Below are positions 41,316 through 48,525 of a DNA stretch of 64,000 bases, in pieces (the stretch's first letter is position 1; each line of letters begins with the position of its first letter). The stretch spans positions 1 through 64,000 of the forward strand of contig CACJHI010000003.1 in assembly GCA_902593165.1 (NCBI GenBank), read 5' to 3'. The notes under the pieces were generated by a model. The model had not been told where the DNA came from and made no database searches. It was given only the letters and a program-made list of their open reading frames with translations. The position numbers and the translations under genes are program-made. This stretch comes from an uncultured Bacteroidota bacterium (GTDB lineage Bacteria > Bacteroidota > Bacteroidia > Flavobacteriales > Flavobacteriaceae).

Positions 41316-41624
41316 TTATATTTTTGGACCAGTCCATTCAGAAATTCCACCTAACAAATTATAAAGATTTTCAAATCCAAAAGACTTCATGATTTGACAT
41401 GCCTGAACACTTCTTACTCCAGAGTGACAATAAACATAATAATTTTTAGCTTTATCAAGCTGTTGAATACCATCCATAAATAATTGAGGATCCCTAATAT
41501 TTAAAAGTTTAGAATTAGGGATATGTGACTCTCCAAATTCATCATCTGTTCTAACATCCAATAGGCATGAATTTTTATCTTTTTCCAATATTTCAATTAG
41601 TTCATCTGAAGTAAGATTGATCAT
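41316..41624 (-). CDS. Rhodanese-like domain protein
   Basis: 102 residues, one rhodanese domain: LLDVRTDDEFGESHIPNSKL (the DVR..E..HIPGA-type motif) and the active-site loop VYCHSGVRS with Cys66. It has no signal peptide. Such single-domain proteins carry persulfide sulfur in the cytosol. It is a single gene, with 113 bases to the next plus-strand gene at 41737. Confidence 0.88.
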   Translation of the reverse strand: MINLTSDELIEILEKDKNSCLLDVRTDDEFGESHIPNSKLLNIRDPQLFMDGIQQLDKAKNYYVYCHSGVRSVQACQIMKSFGFENLYNLLGGISEWTGPKI

Positions 41625-41736
41625 GTTGTTTTTTTTGGTAAAATAAGAAAATCAAATAGTATTTTAAAAAAAACTTGACTTATACTTTTTTTAGTTTAAT
41701 TCTAATTATGTATTTTGGGCTTAAATATATTTATCT

Positions 41737-41910
41737 ATGAAATATTTTCAAAAATCTGATATCTTTTTAATTGGTGCTGCATTTATCTCTTTTGTCTTAT
41801 CAGTTTCTTTATGGTTTTATGGTTATAAAGATGAAGGACTATTTGTTGGATTATGGGTTCCTTCAATTCTTTCTTTTGGTTGTTATTTTAAACAAATGCT
41901 AAACAAATAA
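41737..41910 (+). CDS. 57-residue conserved-looking membrane protein
   Basis: From ATG 41737: MKYFQKSDIFLIGAAFISFV followed by two hydrophobic segments separated by a short charged loop (YGYKDEGLF), ending KQMLNK. It is a two-span inner-membrane protein of unknown function. It resembles small flavobacterial membrane proteins I have seen next to similar genes, but I cannot name a family. The stop is one base before the ATG at 41912, which supports its reality. Confidence 0.6.
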   Translation: MKYFQKSDIFLIGAAFISFVLSVSLWFYGYKDEGLFVGLWVPSILSFGCYFKQMLNK

Positions 41911-41911
41911 A

Positions 41912-42139
41912 ATGGGAGATACATTTATTTTTATAATGGGTTTAGTTTGTACTGGAGCAGTTGTTGCGGCAACTTTTCTATCTATAAATGAACTCAAAGA
42001 TGTAAATGAACCTCAGCTTGAAACAATGGACATGGCCGAGGGTACGAAAAAGCATCTAAAACTTATATCTACAGCAATATTTATAATTATAGGTTTTGTT
42101 TCTGTAGGTTTATTTTGTTTTTATTTTATATTTGCCTAA
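41912..42139 (+). CDS. 75-residue two-span membrane protein, unknown function
   Basis: Two hydrophobic segments (about 4-25 and 49-74) flank a charged, acidic loop (NELKDVNEPQLETMDMAEGTKK). No family is recognised. The gene follows the 57-residue gene after one base. Its last codons contain the TATATTTG element at 42127-42134, and its TAA overlaps the ATG of the trp leader peptide (TAATG), so it may be translationally coupled to the leader if read through. Confidence 0.65.
   Translation: MGDTFIFIMGLVCTGAVVAATFLSINELKDVNEPQLETMDMAEGTKKHLKLISTAIFIIIGFVSVGLFCFYFIFA
42127..42134 (+). promoter_or_regulatory. trpL: TAnnTTTG -7 element at trp leader
   Basis: TATATTTG, exact Bacteroidota -7 consensus, inside the final codons of the 75-residue protein gene. 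It ends four bases before the leader-peptide ATG at 42139, so the trp transcript would start at or very near that ATG. No good -33 TTTG is found at 19-21 bases. Confidence 0.5.
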
Positions 42140-42183
42140 TGAAATTAATTAAGAAATACTGGTGGTGGAATTGCGAAATCTGA
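42139..42183 (+). CDS. trpL: trp operon leader peptide (three Trp codons)
   Basis: ATG 42139 to TGA 42183 encodes the 14-residue peptide MKLIKKYWWWNCEI with three consecutive TGG codons at 42160-42168. It lies 60 bases before trpE and directly before an intrinsic terminator, the arrangement of ribosome-mediated attenuation leaders. When charged tRNA-Trp is scarce the ribosome should stall on the TGG codons. The ATG shares one base with the preceding stop codon. Confidence 0.85.
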   Translation: MKLIKKYWWWNCEI

Positions 42184-42225
42184 TTAATCGTGAATAAAAC
42201 TGTTGTATAATAGCTTGTCTCACGA
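42171..42225 (+). promoter_or_regulatory. Alternative pairing segments of the trp attenuator
   Basis: Three 6-base segments can pair in two ways. TTGCGA (42171-42176) with TCGTGA (42188-42193) forms an early hairpin, and TCGTGA with TCACGA (42220-42225) is an exact complement that would disrupt the terminator. A second option, CTGTTG (42200-42205) with CGACAG (42223-42228), does the same. Pairings were found by eye; energies were not computed. Confidence 0.5.
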
Positions 42226-42239
42226 CAGGCTTTTTTTTT
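42212..42239 (+). terminator. Intrinsic terminator (trp attenuator)
   Basis: Stem AGCTTGTC (42212-42219) with GACAGGCT (42224-42231), loop TCAC, followed by a run of nine T (42231-42239). One T-G pair; otherwise complete. It ends three bases before the trpE ATG, so termination here would silence the whole trp operon. Confidence 0.85.
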
Positions 42240-42242
42240 GCT

Positions 42243-43643
42243 ATGAAAAGAATAAAACTAAATAATTATCATAAAAAAATCTTTGCAGATACAATTACTC
42301 CTGTAGAGGTATATTTAAAGATTAGAGATATTTTTCCTAATAGTCTATTGCTAGAAAATAGTGATTACATGTTAGCGAATAATAATTACTCATTCATTTG
42401 TTTCAATCAAATTGGATTTATAAAAATAAAAAACAGTGAAGTTCACTGTTCTTATCCTGAAGGGGAAGATGAATCTAGAATGTTAGCTAAGGATGAAAAA
42501 ATTTCAACTGTAATACATAATTATCTTGAAAAGTTTGATACAACAAATTCTGAGTTCAAATTTTTGAATAATGGACTTTTTGGATATATGAGTCATGAAT
42601 CAGTTAAATATTTTGACTCAGTTAAAATTGAAAATAAAGATGACTTTGATATTCCAGATATTTATTATGGTCTATACCAGAATATAATAGCAATTAGCCA
42701 GTACAATCATGAGGCACATATCTTTTGTAATTCTGTCAAAGAATCTCATAATATAGACTACGTAGAGTCTATTCTTAATAATAAAAGTTATTCAGTTTTT
42801 AACTTTAAGAAATCAGGGAAATCTGAATCACCAATTACAGATGATGAATATATTGATTATGTCAAAAGAGCTAAGGATCATTGTAAAAGAGGAGATGTTT
42901 TTCAATTGGTTTTATCAAGAAGATTCAAACAAAAATTTAGTGGTGATGAATTTAATGTATATAGAGCACTTAGATCAATAAACCCCTCACCTTATCTCTT
43001 CTTTTTTGATTATGGCGATTTTAAAATTTTTGGTAGCTCACCAGAGGCTCAAATTATTATTAAAGATGGGAAATCAGAAATTCATCCCATTGCAGGAACA
43101 TTTAAAAGAACTGGTAATGATGAGGAAGATCAAAAAACAGCAAAAGAGTTAGCAGAAGACCCAAAAGAAAACTCTGAACATATTATGTTAGTTGACTTAG
43201 CTAGAAATGATCTAAGTAGAAGCGGTAACAATGTAAAGATTGAGAAAAATAGAGAGGTTCAGTTTTATTCTCATGTAATTCACCTTGTGTCTAAAGTTAC
43301 CTCAATACTCAAGGAAAACATAAAGTCTTTTCAAGTTGTTGAGGATACTTTTCCTGCTGGTACATTATCTGGAGCACCAAAACATAGGGCTCTTGAACTT
43401 ATCGAAAAATATGAAAAAGTAAATAGGAACTTTTACGGTGGAGCAATTGGATATATAGATTTTAACGGGAATTTTAATCATGCAATTATTATAAGATCAT
43501 TTTTTAGTAAAAATAATGTATTGAATTATCAGGCAGGAGCAGGAATTGTGATTGATTCGATTCCTGAAAAAGAATTAGAAGAAGTAAAAAATAAACTAGG
43601 TGCATTAGATAAAGCTTTGGAAGAGGCTGAAAAGATAAAATGA
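42243..43643 (+). CDS. trpE: Anthranilate synthase component I
   Basis: 466 residues with the chorismate-binding domain in the C-terminal half: GDVFQLVLSRRF, PSPYLFFFDYGDFKIFGSSPE, IHPIAGTFKRTG, ENSEHIMLVDLARNDLSRS, FPAGTLSGAPKHRALELIEK and YGGAIGYIDFNG. The N-terminal Trp feedback site reads LLENSD where LLES is usual. It makes anthranilate from chorismate with TrpG. First structural gene of the attenuated trp operon; it overlaps trpG by four bases. Confidence 0.97.
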   Translation: MKRIKLNNYHKKIFADTITPVEVYLKIRDIFPNSLLLENSDYMLANNNYSFICFNQIGFIKIKNSEVHCSYPEGEDESRMLAKDEKISTVIHNYLEKFDTTNSEFKFLNNGLFGYMSHESVKYFDSVKIENKDDFDIPDIYYGLYQNIIAISQYNHEAHIFCNSVKESHNIDYVESILNNKSYSVFNFKKSGKSESPITDDEYIDYVKRAKDHCKRGDVFQLVLSRRFKQKFSGDEFNVYRALRSINPSPYLFFFDYGDFKIFGSSPEAQIIIKDGKSEIHPIAGTFKRTGNDEEDQKTAKELAEDPKENSEHIMLVDLARNDLSRSGNNVKIEKNREVQFYSHVIHLVSKVTSILKENIKSFQVVEDTFPAGTLSGAPKHRALELIEKYEKVNRNFYGGAIGYIDFNGNFNHAIIIRSFFSKNNVLNYQAGAGIVIDSIPEKELEEVKNKLGALDKALEEAEKIK

Positions 43644-44206
43644 AAAAGATTTTTCTAATAGATAACTATGATTCGTTTACATATAACCTTTTATATTATG
43701 TAGAGGAACTCGGGTGTGAAATAACAGTTAAAAGAAATGATATGTTTGAACTTGATGAAATTAAAAAGTATGATGCTGTTCTTATTTCACCAGGTCCGGG
43801 GATCCCATCTGAAGCAGGTAAGATATTAGATGTAATAAAAATGTATTACGATAAAAAAAACATTCTTGGAGTCTGTTTAGGTCAACAAGCTATTGCTGAA
43901 GCTTTTGGGGGAACCTTAAGAAATTTAAAGAAAGTTTATCATGGAGTTTCGTCTAAAATAAGAGTTACTGATTCAGATTTAATCTTTAATAATATTGAAT
44001 CCGAACTAGAAGTTGGAAGATATCATTCGTGGATAGTTGACAAACCAATTCCCAATGACTTTAAAGTAACTTCTATTGATGAGAATGGAGAAATAATGTC
44101 AATTAAACACAAAGATTATAATGTTAGAGGTGTTCAGTTCCATCCTGAATCAGTTTTGACACCAAAAGGAAAAATAATATTAAAGAATTGGATAAATAGC
44201 CTATGA
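43640..44206 (+). CDS. trpG: Anthranilate synthase component II (glutamine amidotransferase)
   Basis: 188-residue class I amidotransferase: DNYDSFTYNL at the N-terminus, LISPGPGIPSEAG, the nucleophile Cys79 in GVCLGQQAIAEAFGG and the His168-Pro-Glu170 pair in VQFHPESVLTPKG. The usual GHQ after the nucleophile is GQQ. It supplies ammonia to TrpE. It overlaps trpE and trpD by four bases each. Confidence 0.96.
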   Translation: MKKIFLIDNYDSFTYNLLYYVEELGCEITVKRNDMFELDEIKKYDAVLISPGPGIPSEAGKILDVIKMYYDKKNILGVCLGQQAIAEAFGGTLRNLKKVYHGVSSKIRVTDSDLIFNNIESELEVGRYHSWIVDKPIPNDFKVTSIDENGEIMSIKHKDYNVRGVQFHPESVLTPKGKIILKNWINSL

Positions 44207-45195
44207 AAAAAGTATTAAACAGATTGACACAATATGAAACATTAACAGAAGACGAGTCAAGAAATATAATTATTGAAATTTCTGAGGGTAAACTTAATAC
44301 AAGTGAAATATCATCTTTTTTGACAGTTTTTATGATCAGAAATATAACTATTGAGGAGCTAAATGGGTTTAGAAAAGCTTTAATTGAACTATCTCTTAAA
44401 ATTGATCTTGAAGAGTTCGACCCAATTGATTTATGTGGAACGGGTGGAGACGAAAAAGATACTTTTAATATTTCAACGTTGGCTTCATTTGTAACAGCTG
44501 GTTCAGGAGTTAAAGTAGCAAAACATGGAAACTATGGAGTTTCTTCAAGCTGTGGATCAAGTAATGTTTTAGAAAGTCTAGGTCTAAATTTTAATAATGA
44601 TTCTAATAAAATTAAGGAAGCGGTTGATAAAGCAAATATATGCTTTTTACATGCCCCTCTTTTTCACCCTGCAATGAAGAATGTTGCACCAGTTAGAAAG
44701 GAACTAGGATTAAAAACTTTTTTTAATATGCTGGGACCAATGGTTAACCCATCTATACCAAAAAAGCAGATTGTAGGAGTATATAATCTTGAATTAGCTA
44801 GGATTTATAATTATTTATATCAGCTTACAGACATCAATTATAATATTATTCATTCATTGGATGGTTATGATGAAATATCTTTAACTGGCAATACTAAGGT
44901 TTACTCTAGAAAAAGTGAATTTATTTTAGAATCTGAAGATTTTAATTTAAAGAATATTAACCCTATGGATATTAAAGGGGGAATTGATATAAAATCATCA
45001 TCGAAGATTTTTATGAATGTTTTAAATGGAGATGGATCAAATCATCAAGAGAATGTGGTTTGCGCAAATGCATCTTTAGCAATTGCAATCTCAAAGAAAA
45101 TTTCAATTTTAGATGCTTTTGAAGAAGCAAAAGAATCTATTAAAAGCGGAAAAGCTTTAAAATGTTTTAATAATCTCATAAATATTATGAAATGA
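44203..45195 (+). CDS. trpD: Anthranilate phosphoribosyltransferase
   Basis: 330 residues with the PRPP-binding motif CGTGGDEKDTFNIST and KHGNYGVSSSCGSSNVLE, then FLHAPLFHPAMKNVAPVRKE. It joins anthranilate and PRPP. Length is normal. Four-base overlaps on both sides with trpG and trpC. Confidence 0.97.
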   Translation: MKKVLNRLTQYETLTEDESRNIIIEISEGKLNTSEISSFLTVFMIRNITIEELNGFRKALIELSLKIDLEEFDPIDLCGTGGDEKDTFNISTLASFVTAGSGVKVAKHGNYGVSSSCGSSNVLESLGLNFNNDSNKIKEAVDKANICFLHAPLFHPAMKNVAPVRKELGLKTFFNMLGPMVNPSIPKKQIVGVYNLELARIYNYLYQLTDINYNIIHSLDGYDEISLTGNTKVYSRKSEFILESEDFNLKNINPMDIKGGIDIKSSSKIFMNVLNGDGSNHQENVVCANASLAIAISKKISILDAFEEAKESIKSGKALKCFNNLINIMK

Positions 45196-45983
45196 AAATT
45201 CTTGATAAGATTGTTAGAGATAAGAAATTGGAGGTGGACAAATTATCCTCAAATAGTTCTATAAAAGAACTTGAGAGTACTAGTCTATTTTCTAGACAAT
45301 GTATCTCTCTAAAAGATTCAATTCTTAATAGTTCTGGAGGGATAATATGTGAATTTAAAAGAAGATCTCCATCAAATAATAATATTAATTATAAATCTAA
45401 TATATCTGAGGTTGTAAAGGGATACCAAAAAGCTGGAGCTGCTGGACTATCAATATTGACTAATAAACAATATTTTGATGGTGATATTCAAGATATTCTT
45501 GAAATAAGAGACATTACAAGTATACCTATTTTAAGGAAAGAATTCATTATTAGTGAGTATCAAATAATCGAGGCGAAGTCAATTGGATCAGATGCAATTT
45601 TATTAATAGCATCAATATTATCAAAAGAAGAGATTAAAAATTATAGTTCATTAGCAAAAAATATAGGCCTTGAAGTACTTTTTGAGATTCATGATGCTGA
45701 GGAATTAGAAAAAATATCTGGGGAGAATATTGATATTATTGGAGTTAATAACAGAAATCTTGACACATTAGAAATTGATTTACAAAATAGTGTTGATCTA
45801 TATAATAAGATTCCTAATAGTTTTGTAAAAATATCTGAAAGTGGCATTAGTGAAGTTGAATCAATCTTAAAGCTAAGAGAAGTTGGTTATCAAGGATTTT
45901 TAATTGGTGAAAACTTTATGAGAACAGATGATCCATTTGTGTCAGCTTATAATTTTATTAAAGAGGTTGAAAATGAAATTTAA
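45192..45983 (+). CDS. trpC: Indole-3-glycerol phosphate synthase
   Basis: 263 residues, a TIM barrel with the IGPS signatures CEFKRRSPS, LSILTNKQYFDGD, ILRKEFIISEYQI and IGVNNRNLDTLEID, and SESGI near the end. It closes the indole ring. It is a stand-alone enzyme, not fused to TrpF. The last 11 bases overlap trpF. Confidence 0.96.
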   Translation: MKILDKIVRDKKLEVDKLSSNSSIKELESTSLFSRQCISLKDSILNSSGGIICEFKRRSPSNNNINYKSNISEVVKGYQKAGAAGLSILTNKQYFDGDIQDILEIRDITSIPILRKEFIISEYQIIEAKSIGSDAILLIASILSKEEIKNYSSLAKNIGLEVLFEIHDAEELEKISGENIDIIGVNNRNLDTLEIDLQNSVDLYNKIPNSFVKISESGISEVESILKLREVGYQGFLIGENFMRTDDPFVSAYNFIKEVENEI

Positions 45984-46599
45984 AATTTGTGGACTATTTA
46001 ATAATGAGAACATAAGCCAAGTAGCTGAATTAAATCCAGACTATATTGGTCATATTTTTTGGGAAAAATCAGTTAGATACGTGAAGAGTTTAACCCCAAG
46101 CCTTAATAAAGAGATTAAAAAAACTGGTGTCTTTTTTAATTCAGACACTGAAAATATAATTAATAAAATTAATGAGCATAATTTAGCTTGTGTTCAATTA
46201 CACGGTGATGAATCACCAAAATTTTGTAGAAAGATTTTAGATACAGGGACACAGGTCATTAAGTCGTTTAGAGTAGATGATAATTTTGATTTTAGCATTT
46301 TGAGGAACTATGAAAATTATTGTGATTTATTTTTATTTGACTCAAAATCAGAACTTCCTGGTGGAACCGGCAAGTCATTTAATTGGAAAAATTTAAAAAA
46401 ATATGACCTAAAAAAGGATTTCTTTATTAGTGGTGGAATAGGGCTTCATTCTATTGAATCACTAATTGAGCTATTTCAAATGGATCTTCCTATTTATGGT
46501 ATAGATGTTAATAGTAGATTTGAGGATGACAACTATTTAAAGAAAATTGATGAATTAAAAACTTTCATAGAAATAATAAAAAATGAAATATACAGTTGA
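45973..46599 (+). CDS. trpF: Phosphoribosylanthranilate isomerase
   Basis: 208 residues from ATG 45973, which gives the family start MKFKICGL with the catalytic Cys; a longer upstream reading is a trpC shadow. CVQLHGDE and GGTGKSFNW and SGGI mark the phosphate-binding barrel. It catalyses the Amadori step. It overlaps trpC by 11 bases and trpB by 17 bases, so translation is probably coupled. Confidence 0.94.
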   Translation: MKFKICGLFNNENISQVAELNPDYIGHIFWEKSVRYVKSLTPSLNKEIKKTGVFFNSDTENIINKINEHNLACVQLHGDESPKFCRKILDTGTQVIKSFRVDDNFDFSILRNYENYCDLFLFDSKSELPGGTGKSFNWKNLKKYDLKKDFFISGGIGLHSIESLIELFQMDLPIYGIDVNSRFEDDNYLKKIDELKTFIEIIKNEIYS

Positions 46600-47764
46600 T
46601 AAAAAGGGGTTTTATGGAAATTATGGAGGTGCTTTTGTACCTGAAATGCTATTTCCAAACCTTGACGAATTAGAAAAAAATTATAATGAGATTATTAATG
46701 ATCCGAGTTTCCAAGAGGATTATAATAAGCTCTTAAAGGATTATGTAGGGAGACCTACTCCATTGTATTTTGCTGAAAGAATGTCAGAAAAATATAAATG
46801 TAAAATTTACTTTAAACGAGAAGACTTGTGTCATACAGGTGCACACAAAATAAATAATACAGTTGGTCAAATTTTACTTGCTAAAAGATTAGGAAAAAAA
46901 AGAATTATTGCTGAAACAGGAGCGGGTCAACATGGAGTTGCAACTGCAACAGTTTGTGCATTAGCAGGAATTGAATGTGTTATATATATGGGTGCTGTTG
47001 ATATCAAAAGGCAGGCTCCAAATGTTGCTAGAATGAAAATGTTAGGTGCAAGTATTGTTGCTGCTGAATCAGGAAGTAAGACACTTAAAGATGCCACCAA
47101 TGAAGCAATTAGAGATTGGATCAATAACCCTATAACTACTCACTACATAATTGGTTCAGTTGTAGGCCCTCATCCTTATCCAGATATGGTTGCTAAGTTT
47201 CAATCTATAGTTTCAGAAGAGATTAAGTCACAATTATATGAAAAAGAGGGAACTGAAAGTCCTGACTATTTAATAGCTAATATAGGAGGTGGAAGCAATG
47301 CTGCTGGATTATATTATCATTATTTAGAAGATGAAAAAGTAAAAATTATTTCCGTTGAAGCAGCTGGAGAAGGTGTTAAATCTGGAAAAAGTGCTGCAAC
47401 ATCAGTTCTTGGAAAAACTGGTATTATTCATGGAAGTAAAACATTATTAATGCAGACTAAAGATGGACAAATAATTGAACCTTACTCCATTTCTGCTGGC
47501 TTGGATTATCCAGGTGTAGGCCCTCTTCATGCTCATTTACTTGAAAGCAAAAGAGCCGATTTTATGTCAATAACAGATAGTGATGCTATGCTTGCAGGGC
47601 TAGAAGTTTCTAAACTTGAGGGTATCATCCCTGCAATAGAAACTGCCCATGCTTTTGCTGCATTTAAGTATTTAGATTTTAAACCTAATGAAATAATAGT
47701 TGTTAACTTTTCTGGAAGGGGCGACAAGGATTTAAACACATACATTGATTATTTTAATTTATAA
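46583..47764 (+). CDS. trpB: Tryptophan synthase beta chain
   Basis: 393 residues. The PLP lysine is Lys89 in HTGAHKINNTVGQ, and the phosphate-binding loop is GGGSNAAG. YGGAFVPEML, ETGAGQHGVATAT and HAFAAFKY are conserved. It is the standard TrpB1 type and needs TrpA. It overlaps trpF by 17 bases and trpA by one base (TAATG). Confidence 0.98.
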   Translation: MKYTVDKKGFYGNYGGAFVPEMLFPNLDELEKNYNEIINDPSFQEDYNKLLKDYVGRPTPLYFAERMSEKYKCKIYFKREDLCHTGAHKINNTVGQILLAKRLGKKRIIAETGAGQHGVATATVCALAGIECVIYMGAVDIKRQAPNVARMKMLGASIVAAESGSKTLKDATNEAIRDWINNPITTHYIIGSVVGPHPYPDMVAKFQSIVSEEIKSQLYEKEGTESPDYLIANIGGGSNAAGLYYHYLEDEKVKIISVEAAGEGVKSGKSAATSVLGKTGIIHGSKTLLMQTKDGQIIEPYSISAGLDYPGVGPLHAHLLESKRADFMSITDSDAMLAGLEVSKLEGIIPAIETAHAFAAFKYLDFKPNEIIVVNFSGRGDKDLNTYIDYFNL

Positions 47765-48525
47765 TGAATAGAATAGATAAGAAATTAAGAGAAGAAGGAA
47801 AGTTATTATCAATATACTTTACTGCAGGATTCCCTAATCTTAATGATACTGCAGATATCATAATTAAGCTTCAAGAATCAGGTGTTGATATGATTGAAAT
47901 AGGCCTTCCATTTAGTGATCCCCTTGCAGATGGTCCCACAATTCAAGATAGCTCTATGAGTGCTATAAATAATGGGATGAATACAGACATACTGTTTAAT
48001 CAATTAAAAGATATAAGAGATAAGGTTTCCATTCCATTAATTATAATGGGGTATTTTAATCCTATCCTTCAATATGGTGTTGAAAAATTTTGCAAAAAGT
48101 GTAATGAGATTGGAATTGATGGATTAATTATACCTGATTTGCCAATTGATTATTATTTAGAAAATTACAAGTCAATATTTGAAAAGAATAAACTTTATAA
48201 TATGTTTTTAATAGCTCCACAGACTTCTGATGATAGGATTAGAAAAATCGACTCAATTTCTAAAGGGTTTATTTATATGGTAAGTTCTTCTAGTATTACA
48301 GGCTCAAAAAATTCTTTTAGCTCTGAGCAAATAAATTATTTTGAAAGAATTGAAAAAATGAACTTACATACACCAAGAATAATTGGTTTTGGAGTTGGAA
48401 ATAAAGAAACATTTAATGTTACAGTAAATTATTCTAAAGGGGCAATAATTGGATCTGCATTTATAAAAAATCTTCATGAAAATGGTGTCGATTCAATAGA
48501 TTCATTTATTAAATCAATAAGATAA
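47764..48525 (+). CDS. trpA: Tryptophan synthase alpha chain
   Basis: 253 residues, a TIM barrel. The catalytic acids are Glu45 (MIEIGLPFSDPLADG) and Asp56, matching E. coli Glu49 and Asp60. MGYFNPILQYG and GLIIPDLP are conserved. It cleaves indole-3-glycerol phosphate and channels indole to TrpB. Last trp gene; ubiE starts after one base. Confidence 0.97.
   Translation: MNRIDKKLREEGKLLSIYFTAGFPNLNDTADIIIKLQESGVDMIEIGLPFSDPLADGPTIQDSSMSAINNGMNTDILFNQLKDIRDKVSIPLIIMGYFNPILQYGVEKFCKKCNEIGIDGLIIPDLPIDYYLENYKSIFEKNKLYNMFLIAPQTSDDRIRKIDSISKGFIYMVSSSSITGSKNSFSSEQINYFERIEKMNLHTPRIIGFGVGNKETFNVTVNYSKGAIIGSAFIKNLHENGVDSIDSFIKSIR

Follow-up and report, generated by a model that had tools for sequence, protein, structure and literature searches.

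The trp operon in the analysed stretch of DNA (64,000 nucleotides, hereafter the window) very probably stands under the control of a Bacteroid-trp-like, ribosome-mediated attenuator whose antiterminator would act by capturing the loop of the terminator. Our analysis shows that the parts of this element are present, conserved and complementary, and predicts their folds; beyond this we infer the transcription start, the ribosome positions, the timing and the response to tryptophan. The attenuation model first proposed from the letters of this single locus survives the comparison with related loci, as far as computation on sequences and modelled folds can judge it.

The leader, the terminator and their conservation

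All features discussed lie on the forward strand. The leader ORF (MKLIKKYWWWNCEI, 14 codons, 42139–42183) runs from an ATG at 42139 to a TGA stop at 42181–42183 and carries three consecutive tryptophan codons (TGGTGGTGG, TGG TGG TGG, 42160–42168), the putative sensor. The apparent intrinsic terminator (42212–42239) consists of an 8-bp stem, formed by a 5′ arm (AGCTTGTC, 42212–42219) and a 3′ arm (GACAGGCT, 42224–42231) around a TCAC loop (42220–42223), and a T9 tract (42231–42239) that ends three bases 5′ of the trpE ATG. Two further segments complete the element, TTGCGA (A, 42171–42176) and TCGTGA (B, 42188–42193), and the positions that the sequence-only reading had given for leader ORF, TGG run, stop, segments, hairpin, T9 and trpE all proved exact. 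The window has, accordingly placed, the short ORF with clustered end-product codons expected of a ribosome-mediated attenuator and, as read from sequence, an intrinsic terminator between leader and first gene. Downstream the gene order is trpE-G-D-C-F-B-A, with trpE (42243–43643, ATG at 42243) followed by trpG (43640–44206), trpD (44203–45195), trpC (45192–45983), trpF (45973–46599), trpB (46583–47764) and trpA (47764–48525). The source assembly (1.23 Mb, 28 contigs) is about 75% complete and has MED-G11 among its nearest named relatives, which, judging by isolate names, we take to be marine.

A -7 type box (TATATTTG, TAnnTTTG, 42127–42134) precedes the leader and resembles the -7 consensus given for flavobacteria in PMC9723704, which also describes flavobacterial mRNAs as devoid of Shine-Dalgarno sequences. 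Of 153 family sequences, 150 have the same motif within 60 nt 5′ of their leader, against 11.6 expected from shuffling, and its place just 5′ of the leader suggests that transcription should start near the leader ATG. The box lies within the last codons of a 75-codon ORF (41912–42139) whose TAA overlaps the leader ATG; searches of Pfam and NCBIfam at E ≤ 0.001 gave no match to this ORF. On inspection by eye, the end of the ORF is seen again 5′ of the leader in most of the same-genus loci listed (L011 differs and L005 is cut).

As a single sequence the element folds in an ordinary way (z = +0.5, with 138 of 200 shuffles folding at least equally well), so the fold by itself proves nothing and it is conservation that takes the element beyond chance. 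A search of 25 same-genus genomes, including the window's own, gave 18 full trpE matches, 2 partial ones (unread) and 5 genomes with none. Leader and terminator are present at all 18 fully matched loci, bearing out the expectation that the TGG run and hairpin would be kept in close relatives. Upstream regions were drawn from a set of 60 genomes and a set of 149, of which 134 had trpE at E ≤ 1e-100. Together they gave a first set of 138 (136 from the family and 2 from the order), in which 135 have a Trp-run leader, the exceptions being L082, which is cut by a contig end, L130, where an RF01692 match lies further upstream, and L144 (genome G082, a small flavobacterial genome), where the ~340 nt read 5′ of trpE hold no Trp-run leader. 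In L130 (genome G091) that match is unusually far from trpE, with other sequence between. A further 23 regions of the family, in a later set, each have a leader and a terminator, and among 80 loci from named records, which partly overlap the other sets, 77 have both and 64 have the exact TCGTGA..TCACGA pair. The tryptophan run is WWW in 136 of 154 family leaders and only WW in 18. Judged by sequence, this architecture extends across the family and is not peculiar to the window genome.

These counts leave out L031–L038 (fetched as RF01692 matches, not in the first set), L136 (leader present, terminator outside the fitting rule), L152, L154 and L156 (duplicates of L090, L093 and L097), and L184 and genome G113, which had no upstream sequence. 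L011, which contains N, was omitted from alignments and folds; L082 was handled manually in the pairing tests and omitted from folds; L028 and L030, from other families of the order, are excluded from the family counts (n = 154 or 156). Covariation was read from a structure-free MAFFT alignment of 134 rows (A1) and from 42 hand-picked out-of-genus sequences (A2). In the 134-row alignment 99.7% of the terminator-stem cells are paired and the loop itself is strongly conserved, with T in 124, C in 126, A in 118 and C in 132 of the 134 rows.

Predicted pairing of the linker with the terminator loop

The putative antiterminator strand B is complementary to TCACGA (D, 42220–42225), which spans the loop plus two bases at the start of the 3′ arm. 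Over 135 sequences the linker pairs with loop plus 3′ arm at a mean of -8.9 kcal/mol, compared with -4.0 for shuffled linkers (shuffles here preserve base composition only), and the fit is significant at p ≤ 0.04 in 111 of the 135, against 13 for the 5′ arm. For the window, none of 50 shuffles did equally well. The conserved contact is loop plus 3′ arm and not the classical antiterminator sharing the 5′ arm of the terminator. The claim that the antiterminator engages the loop and 3′ arm instead of the 5′ arm holds for this conserved contact, less so for the predicted fold as a whole, which also takes up four 5′-arm bases through an inner extension (ATAA, 42194–42197, with TTGT, 42215–42218) that is prediction only.

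In its true register the B:D helix has 82.6% of its A1 cells paired, compared with 21–48% when slid, with covariation scores of 0.101 and 0.025–0.083, respectively. A1 contains 23 two-sided B:D cells, compared with 5.4 after shuffling (reached in 0 of 500); since sliding by -2 still gives 19, also in 6 pairs as in the true register, the two-sided count alone does not discriminate the register. A2 has 7 two-sided cells, compared with 2.3 after shuffling (0 of 500) and 0–3 when slid, and the number of further pair types was matched by 25 of 500 shuffles. Two-sided core changes occur in eight A1 rows, of which only L102 (GTCGCAAT with ATTGCGAC) has all six core pairs standard and is the sole clean in-register double change; the other seven are distant or misaligned, and L027, L143 and others require re-registering. 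Of the compensatory changes that the sequence-only reading suggested looking for, clean ones are few, and column and row covariation is modest.

Stronger signs than covariation are the conservation of the loop, the G-U cells and the occurrence of TCGTGA in varied coding contexts. All six core pairs are standard in 111 of 134 rows and at least one is broken in 23, and 25 cells at core positions hold one-sided changes that retain G-U, which speaks for pairing in RNA. Exact TCGTGA is present in 130 of 154 family sequences, spelling Ser-stop in 63, read in other frames in 29 and lying beyond the stop codon in 38. For 24 family sequences with divergent loops, own linkers were not clearly above those of others in a swap (p 0.054), which we do not count as support. 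The B:D pairing is weak (-4.3 to -5.1) in L309, L322, L324 and L357. Weak or broken B:D next to an intact terminator, as in L055, L309, L322 and L324, may provide useful natural test cases.

Pairing of A with B exceeds shuffles in 53 of 133 sequences at p ≤ 0.05. A weak hairpin in the spacer, CTGTT/AATAG (42200–42213), is predicted within the antiterminator, but it is not supported as a conserved element (9 of 135 at p ≤ 0.05). All the same, the antiterminator as a whole becomes weaker when the spacer is shuffled (57 of 154 sequences at p ≤ 0.05), the capture of the 5′ arm being 0.57 with the native and 0.51 with the shuffled spacer. The best-scoring single duplex in the window and in L018 is CTGTTGT:ACGACAG rather than TCGTGA:TCACGA. 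These segments (42200–42206 with 42222–42228 in the window) may represent a second antiterminator register, in L018 as well.

Could the attenuator be a classical one, with an antiterminator directed at the 5′ arm and an incidental match to the loop? We consider this improbable. It is true that the 5′ arm is the commoner resolved target outside the family (20 of 45 against 7) and in his and phe leaders (18 of 22 and 20 of 23), that four 5′-arm bases also pair in the fold of the window, and that a duplex with 5′ arm plus loop is the better one in some members (for example L132, L133, L135, L137–L139, L141, L142 and L145). However, in the larger family set the 5′ arm fits 10 of 156 trp linkers at p ≤ 0.05 while loop plus 3′ arm fits 130, 78% of 50 shuffles paired with the 5′ arm of the window equally well, and an antiterminator of that kind would not need the conserved loop.

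Two other readings separate the hairpin or the repeats from antitermination, and both appear very improbable. If the hairpin mainly controlled translation of trpE, by blocking ribosome entry or reinitiation, the T run ending three bases from the ATG in the window and its close relatives would be well placed; yet a stem followed by a T run is what an intrinsic terminator looks like, and in many other genera the same parts occur with the hairpin at least a dozen bases ahead of the start codon (another close case is L164). The other such reading is that TCGTGA and TCACGA serve a DNA-binding regulator as half-sites, with leader and terminator acting apart. They are indeed strongly conserved inverted repeats, but the 25 one-sided changes that retain G-U matter to RNA and not to DNA half-sites, B is placed where a ribosome at the stop codon would cover it, and the pairing is kept with other letters in L102, L172 and L200.

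Ribosome position and the proposed switch

To fold, at equilibrium, the free RNA behind the polymerase, we placed the 3′ edge of the ribosome at the textbook distance, 12 nt downstream of the first A-site base. With this edge a ribosome on the third TGG would cover A without reaching B, and one at the stop codon would cover B to its last base. For the window, a ribosome on the second or third TGG gives a B:D probability of 1.00 at RNA 3′ ends 42225–42228 and 0.99–1.00 at 42229, with a terminator probability of 0.52–0.54 at 42231; the latter is 0.81 with the ribosome on the first TGG and 1.00 with the ribosome at the stop. In sequence and model, the window would therefore have an antiterminator incompatible with the terminator and released when a ribosome sits on the tryptophan codons.

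The same behaviour is predicted across the family. With four nucleotides of the 3′ arm out, 150 of 154 sequences switch in the model; of the exceptions, L041 and L122 still have the loop captured in the stop model, and in L140 and L145 the probability of capture is below 0.5 on the tryptophan codons. With six nucleotides out, the mean terminator probability over the 154 sequences is 0.04 on the last tryptophan codon, 0.94 at the stop and 0.82 with a shuffled linker; with eight nucleotides out these values become 0.69 (tryptophan codons), 1.00 and 0.99. Since the terminator still reaches 0.69 on the tryptophan codons at full length, antitermination in this model must be partly kinetic, the antiterminator having a head start. 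Once B:D had formed, the outer six terminator pairs would require a pseudoknot whose two 3′ strands had no linker to separate them; by reasoning, we judge this to be sterically excluded.

We propose the following sequence of events. Transcription would begin near the leader ATG. When charged tRNA-Trp is scarce, the ribosome would wait on the TGG codons (42160–42168) and cover segment A, leaving B (42188–42193) free. As the loop (42220–42223) and the bases 42224–42225 of the 3′ arm leave the polymerase, B would pair with them before the remainder of the 3′ arm emerges, and with B:D in place the terminator hairpin could not nucleate, so that transcription would read through into trpE. When tryptophan is plentiful, the ribosome would reach the stop (42181–42183) and cover B, and the terminator would form.

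The weakest step concerns RNA that is not translated, where A:B may sequester B and the terminator may form. In the window without a ribosome, B:D has a probability of 0.96–1.00 at 3′ ends 42225–42228, and A:B (0.73–0.79) accompanies the terminator only from 42230 on, the terminator reaching 0.99 at full length. Since B:D dominates at the earlier 3′ ends, termination without translation is not clearly predicted by the model. The suggested TTGCGA:TCGTGA pairing has the weaker support of the two, and without a ribosome the folds keep B:D until almost all of the 3′ arm is out.

If a strand far upstream captures the loop, the kinetic limit would be tight, about the time needed to transcribe the 3′ arm, and such a switch could serve to probe the speed of RNA folding behind a flavobacterial polymerase.

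Known relatives and the two predicted antiterminator topologies

The sequence-only reading recognised a ribosome-mediated attenuator, which stands, and missed its known kin: the element is a divergent relative of the Bacteroid-trp leader (RF01692), published in 2010 by Weinberg et al. (PMC2864571). Like it, the window element is positioned 5′ of trp biosynthesis genes in Bacteroidota and has a Trp-codon leader. In contrast, the RF01692 model gives the window 19 bits against a cut-off of 49, and no Rfam family reached its gathering score in the scanned stretches 41500–42700 and 42110–42260. A model that we built from 42 out-of-genus sequences, several of them RF01692 matches (R1), finds window positions 42163–42238 at 53.7 bits (E 2.7e-9), the next match in the window having 15.2 bits, and so links the window to sequences that pass RF01692. 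Therefore, by sequence, the element is homologous to Bacteroid-trp and is not a member by Rfam's own threshold. A second R1 match in the window genome (contig C14, 9407–9492, 28.3 bits) reads as an ordinary gene-end terminator.

Among 60 family genomes RF01692 had matches in 54 at E ≤ 1, 36 of them over the cut-off; the genome of the window gave no match. A direct scan of 14 loci listed it in 6, on the trp leader, and put it over the cut-off in 3 (L021, L023 and L031); the same-genus locus L007 scored 36.2 bits and the other scanned same-genus loci were unlisted. The Rfam model stops at the 5′ arm of the terminator (GGCUUGUC) and includes neither loop nor 3′ arm nor antiterminator. It therefore cannot show the switch, which is a further difference from the element in the window, and the mechanism above would be a testable one for an RNA family whose Rfam entry, a leader, leaves the switch out of its model.

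The enterobacterial trp leader (RF00513), whose antiterminator pairs with the 5′ arm of the terminator, shares with the window the Trp-codon leader peptide, the mutually exclusive pairings and the decision by ribosome position; it differs in that the conserved contact in the window is the loop and the start of the 3′ arm, and the RF00513 model scores the window at 15 bits against a cut-off of 41. Actinobacterial trp attenuators (PMC1262725) are similar in having a leader with two or three UGG and alternative hairpins; they differ in sequence, and they are presented as attenuators of the classical form, in which the complementary triples gGCC-rGCy-GGCC are conserved.

Attenuation through leader peptides has precedents in flavobacteria: Bacteroid-trp was named 5′ of the Flavobacterium psychrophilum trp operon (PMC6414381), and a transcriptome study of that species reported strong clues for such attenuation and named hisG and pheA elements (PMC9723704). 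The literature searched, with the 2010 supplement (PMC2864571) outside its scope, contained no leader-peptide attenuator with an antiterminator on loop plus 3′ arm. Within that scope the antiterminator topology, its contrast with the his and phe leaders and its spread look new.

In the same family, leaders with His runs precede hisG and leaders with Phe/Tyr runs precede pheA. We could parse 22 of 23 his and 23 of 28 phe loci: the linker fits the 5′ arm in 18 of 22 his leaders and 20 of 23 phe leaders, and loop plus 3′ arm in none of the 22 his and 1 of the 23 phe leaders. The pairing test is therefore not biased towards loop plus 3′ arm, and the trp leaders differ in topology from the his and phe leaders of Flavobacteriaceae.

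Among other Bacteroidia, 55 upstream regions were examined and 45 had leader and terminator (those lacking a leader are L173, L176, L177, L178, L181, L194, L196, L198, L199 and L201). By a rule of our own making (p ≤ 0.05, energy margin 1 kcal/mol), the target is the 5′ arm in 20 of the 45, loop plus 3′ arm in 7, including L172 (CGCTGTGA with TCACAGCG) and L200, and neither in 18. When linkers were swapped among 47 outside-family sequences, own linkers performed better than those of others for both targets (p 0.006 for loop plus 3′ arm and 0.0002 for the 5′ arm), and antiterminator topology therefore seems, from sequence, to differ between lineages. We lean towards the view that Flavobacteriaceae trp operons have a distinct class of loop-capture attenuator, which would deny the terminator its nucleation site with a head start of a few nucleotides, that his and phe leaders keep the 5′-arm form, and that topology changed more than once in Bacteroidia. 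Two antiterminator topologies would then exist side by side in one bacterial family.

At the hisG loci (L229–L251), His-run leaders are followed by a terminator and a CTCAAGCG-like segment can pair with its 5′ arm (CGTTTGAG), making up a candidate RNA family; PMC9723704 gives no Rfam match for the hisG element, and hisG was not found in the window's own, ~75% complete, assembly. Among the pheA loci (L252–L279), the window genome's own leader (L255), which is rich in Phe/Tyr and lies 5′ of pheA, fits the 5′ arm.
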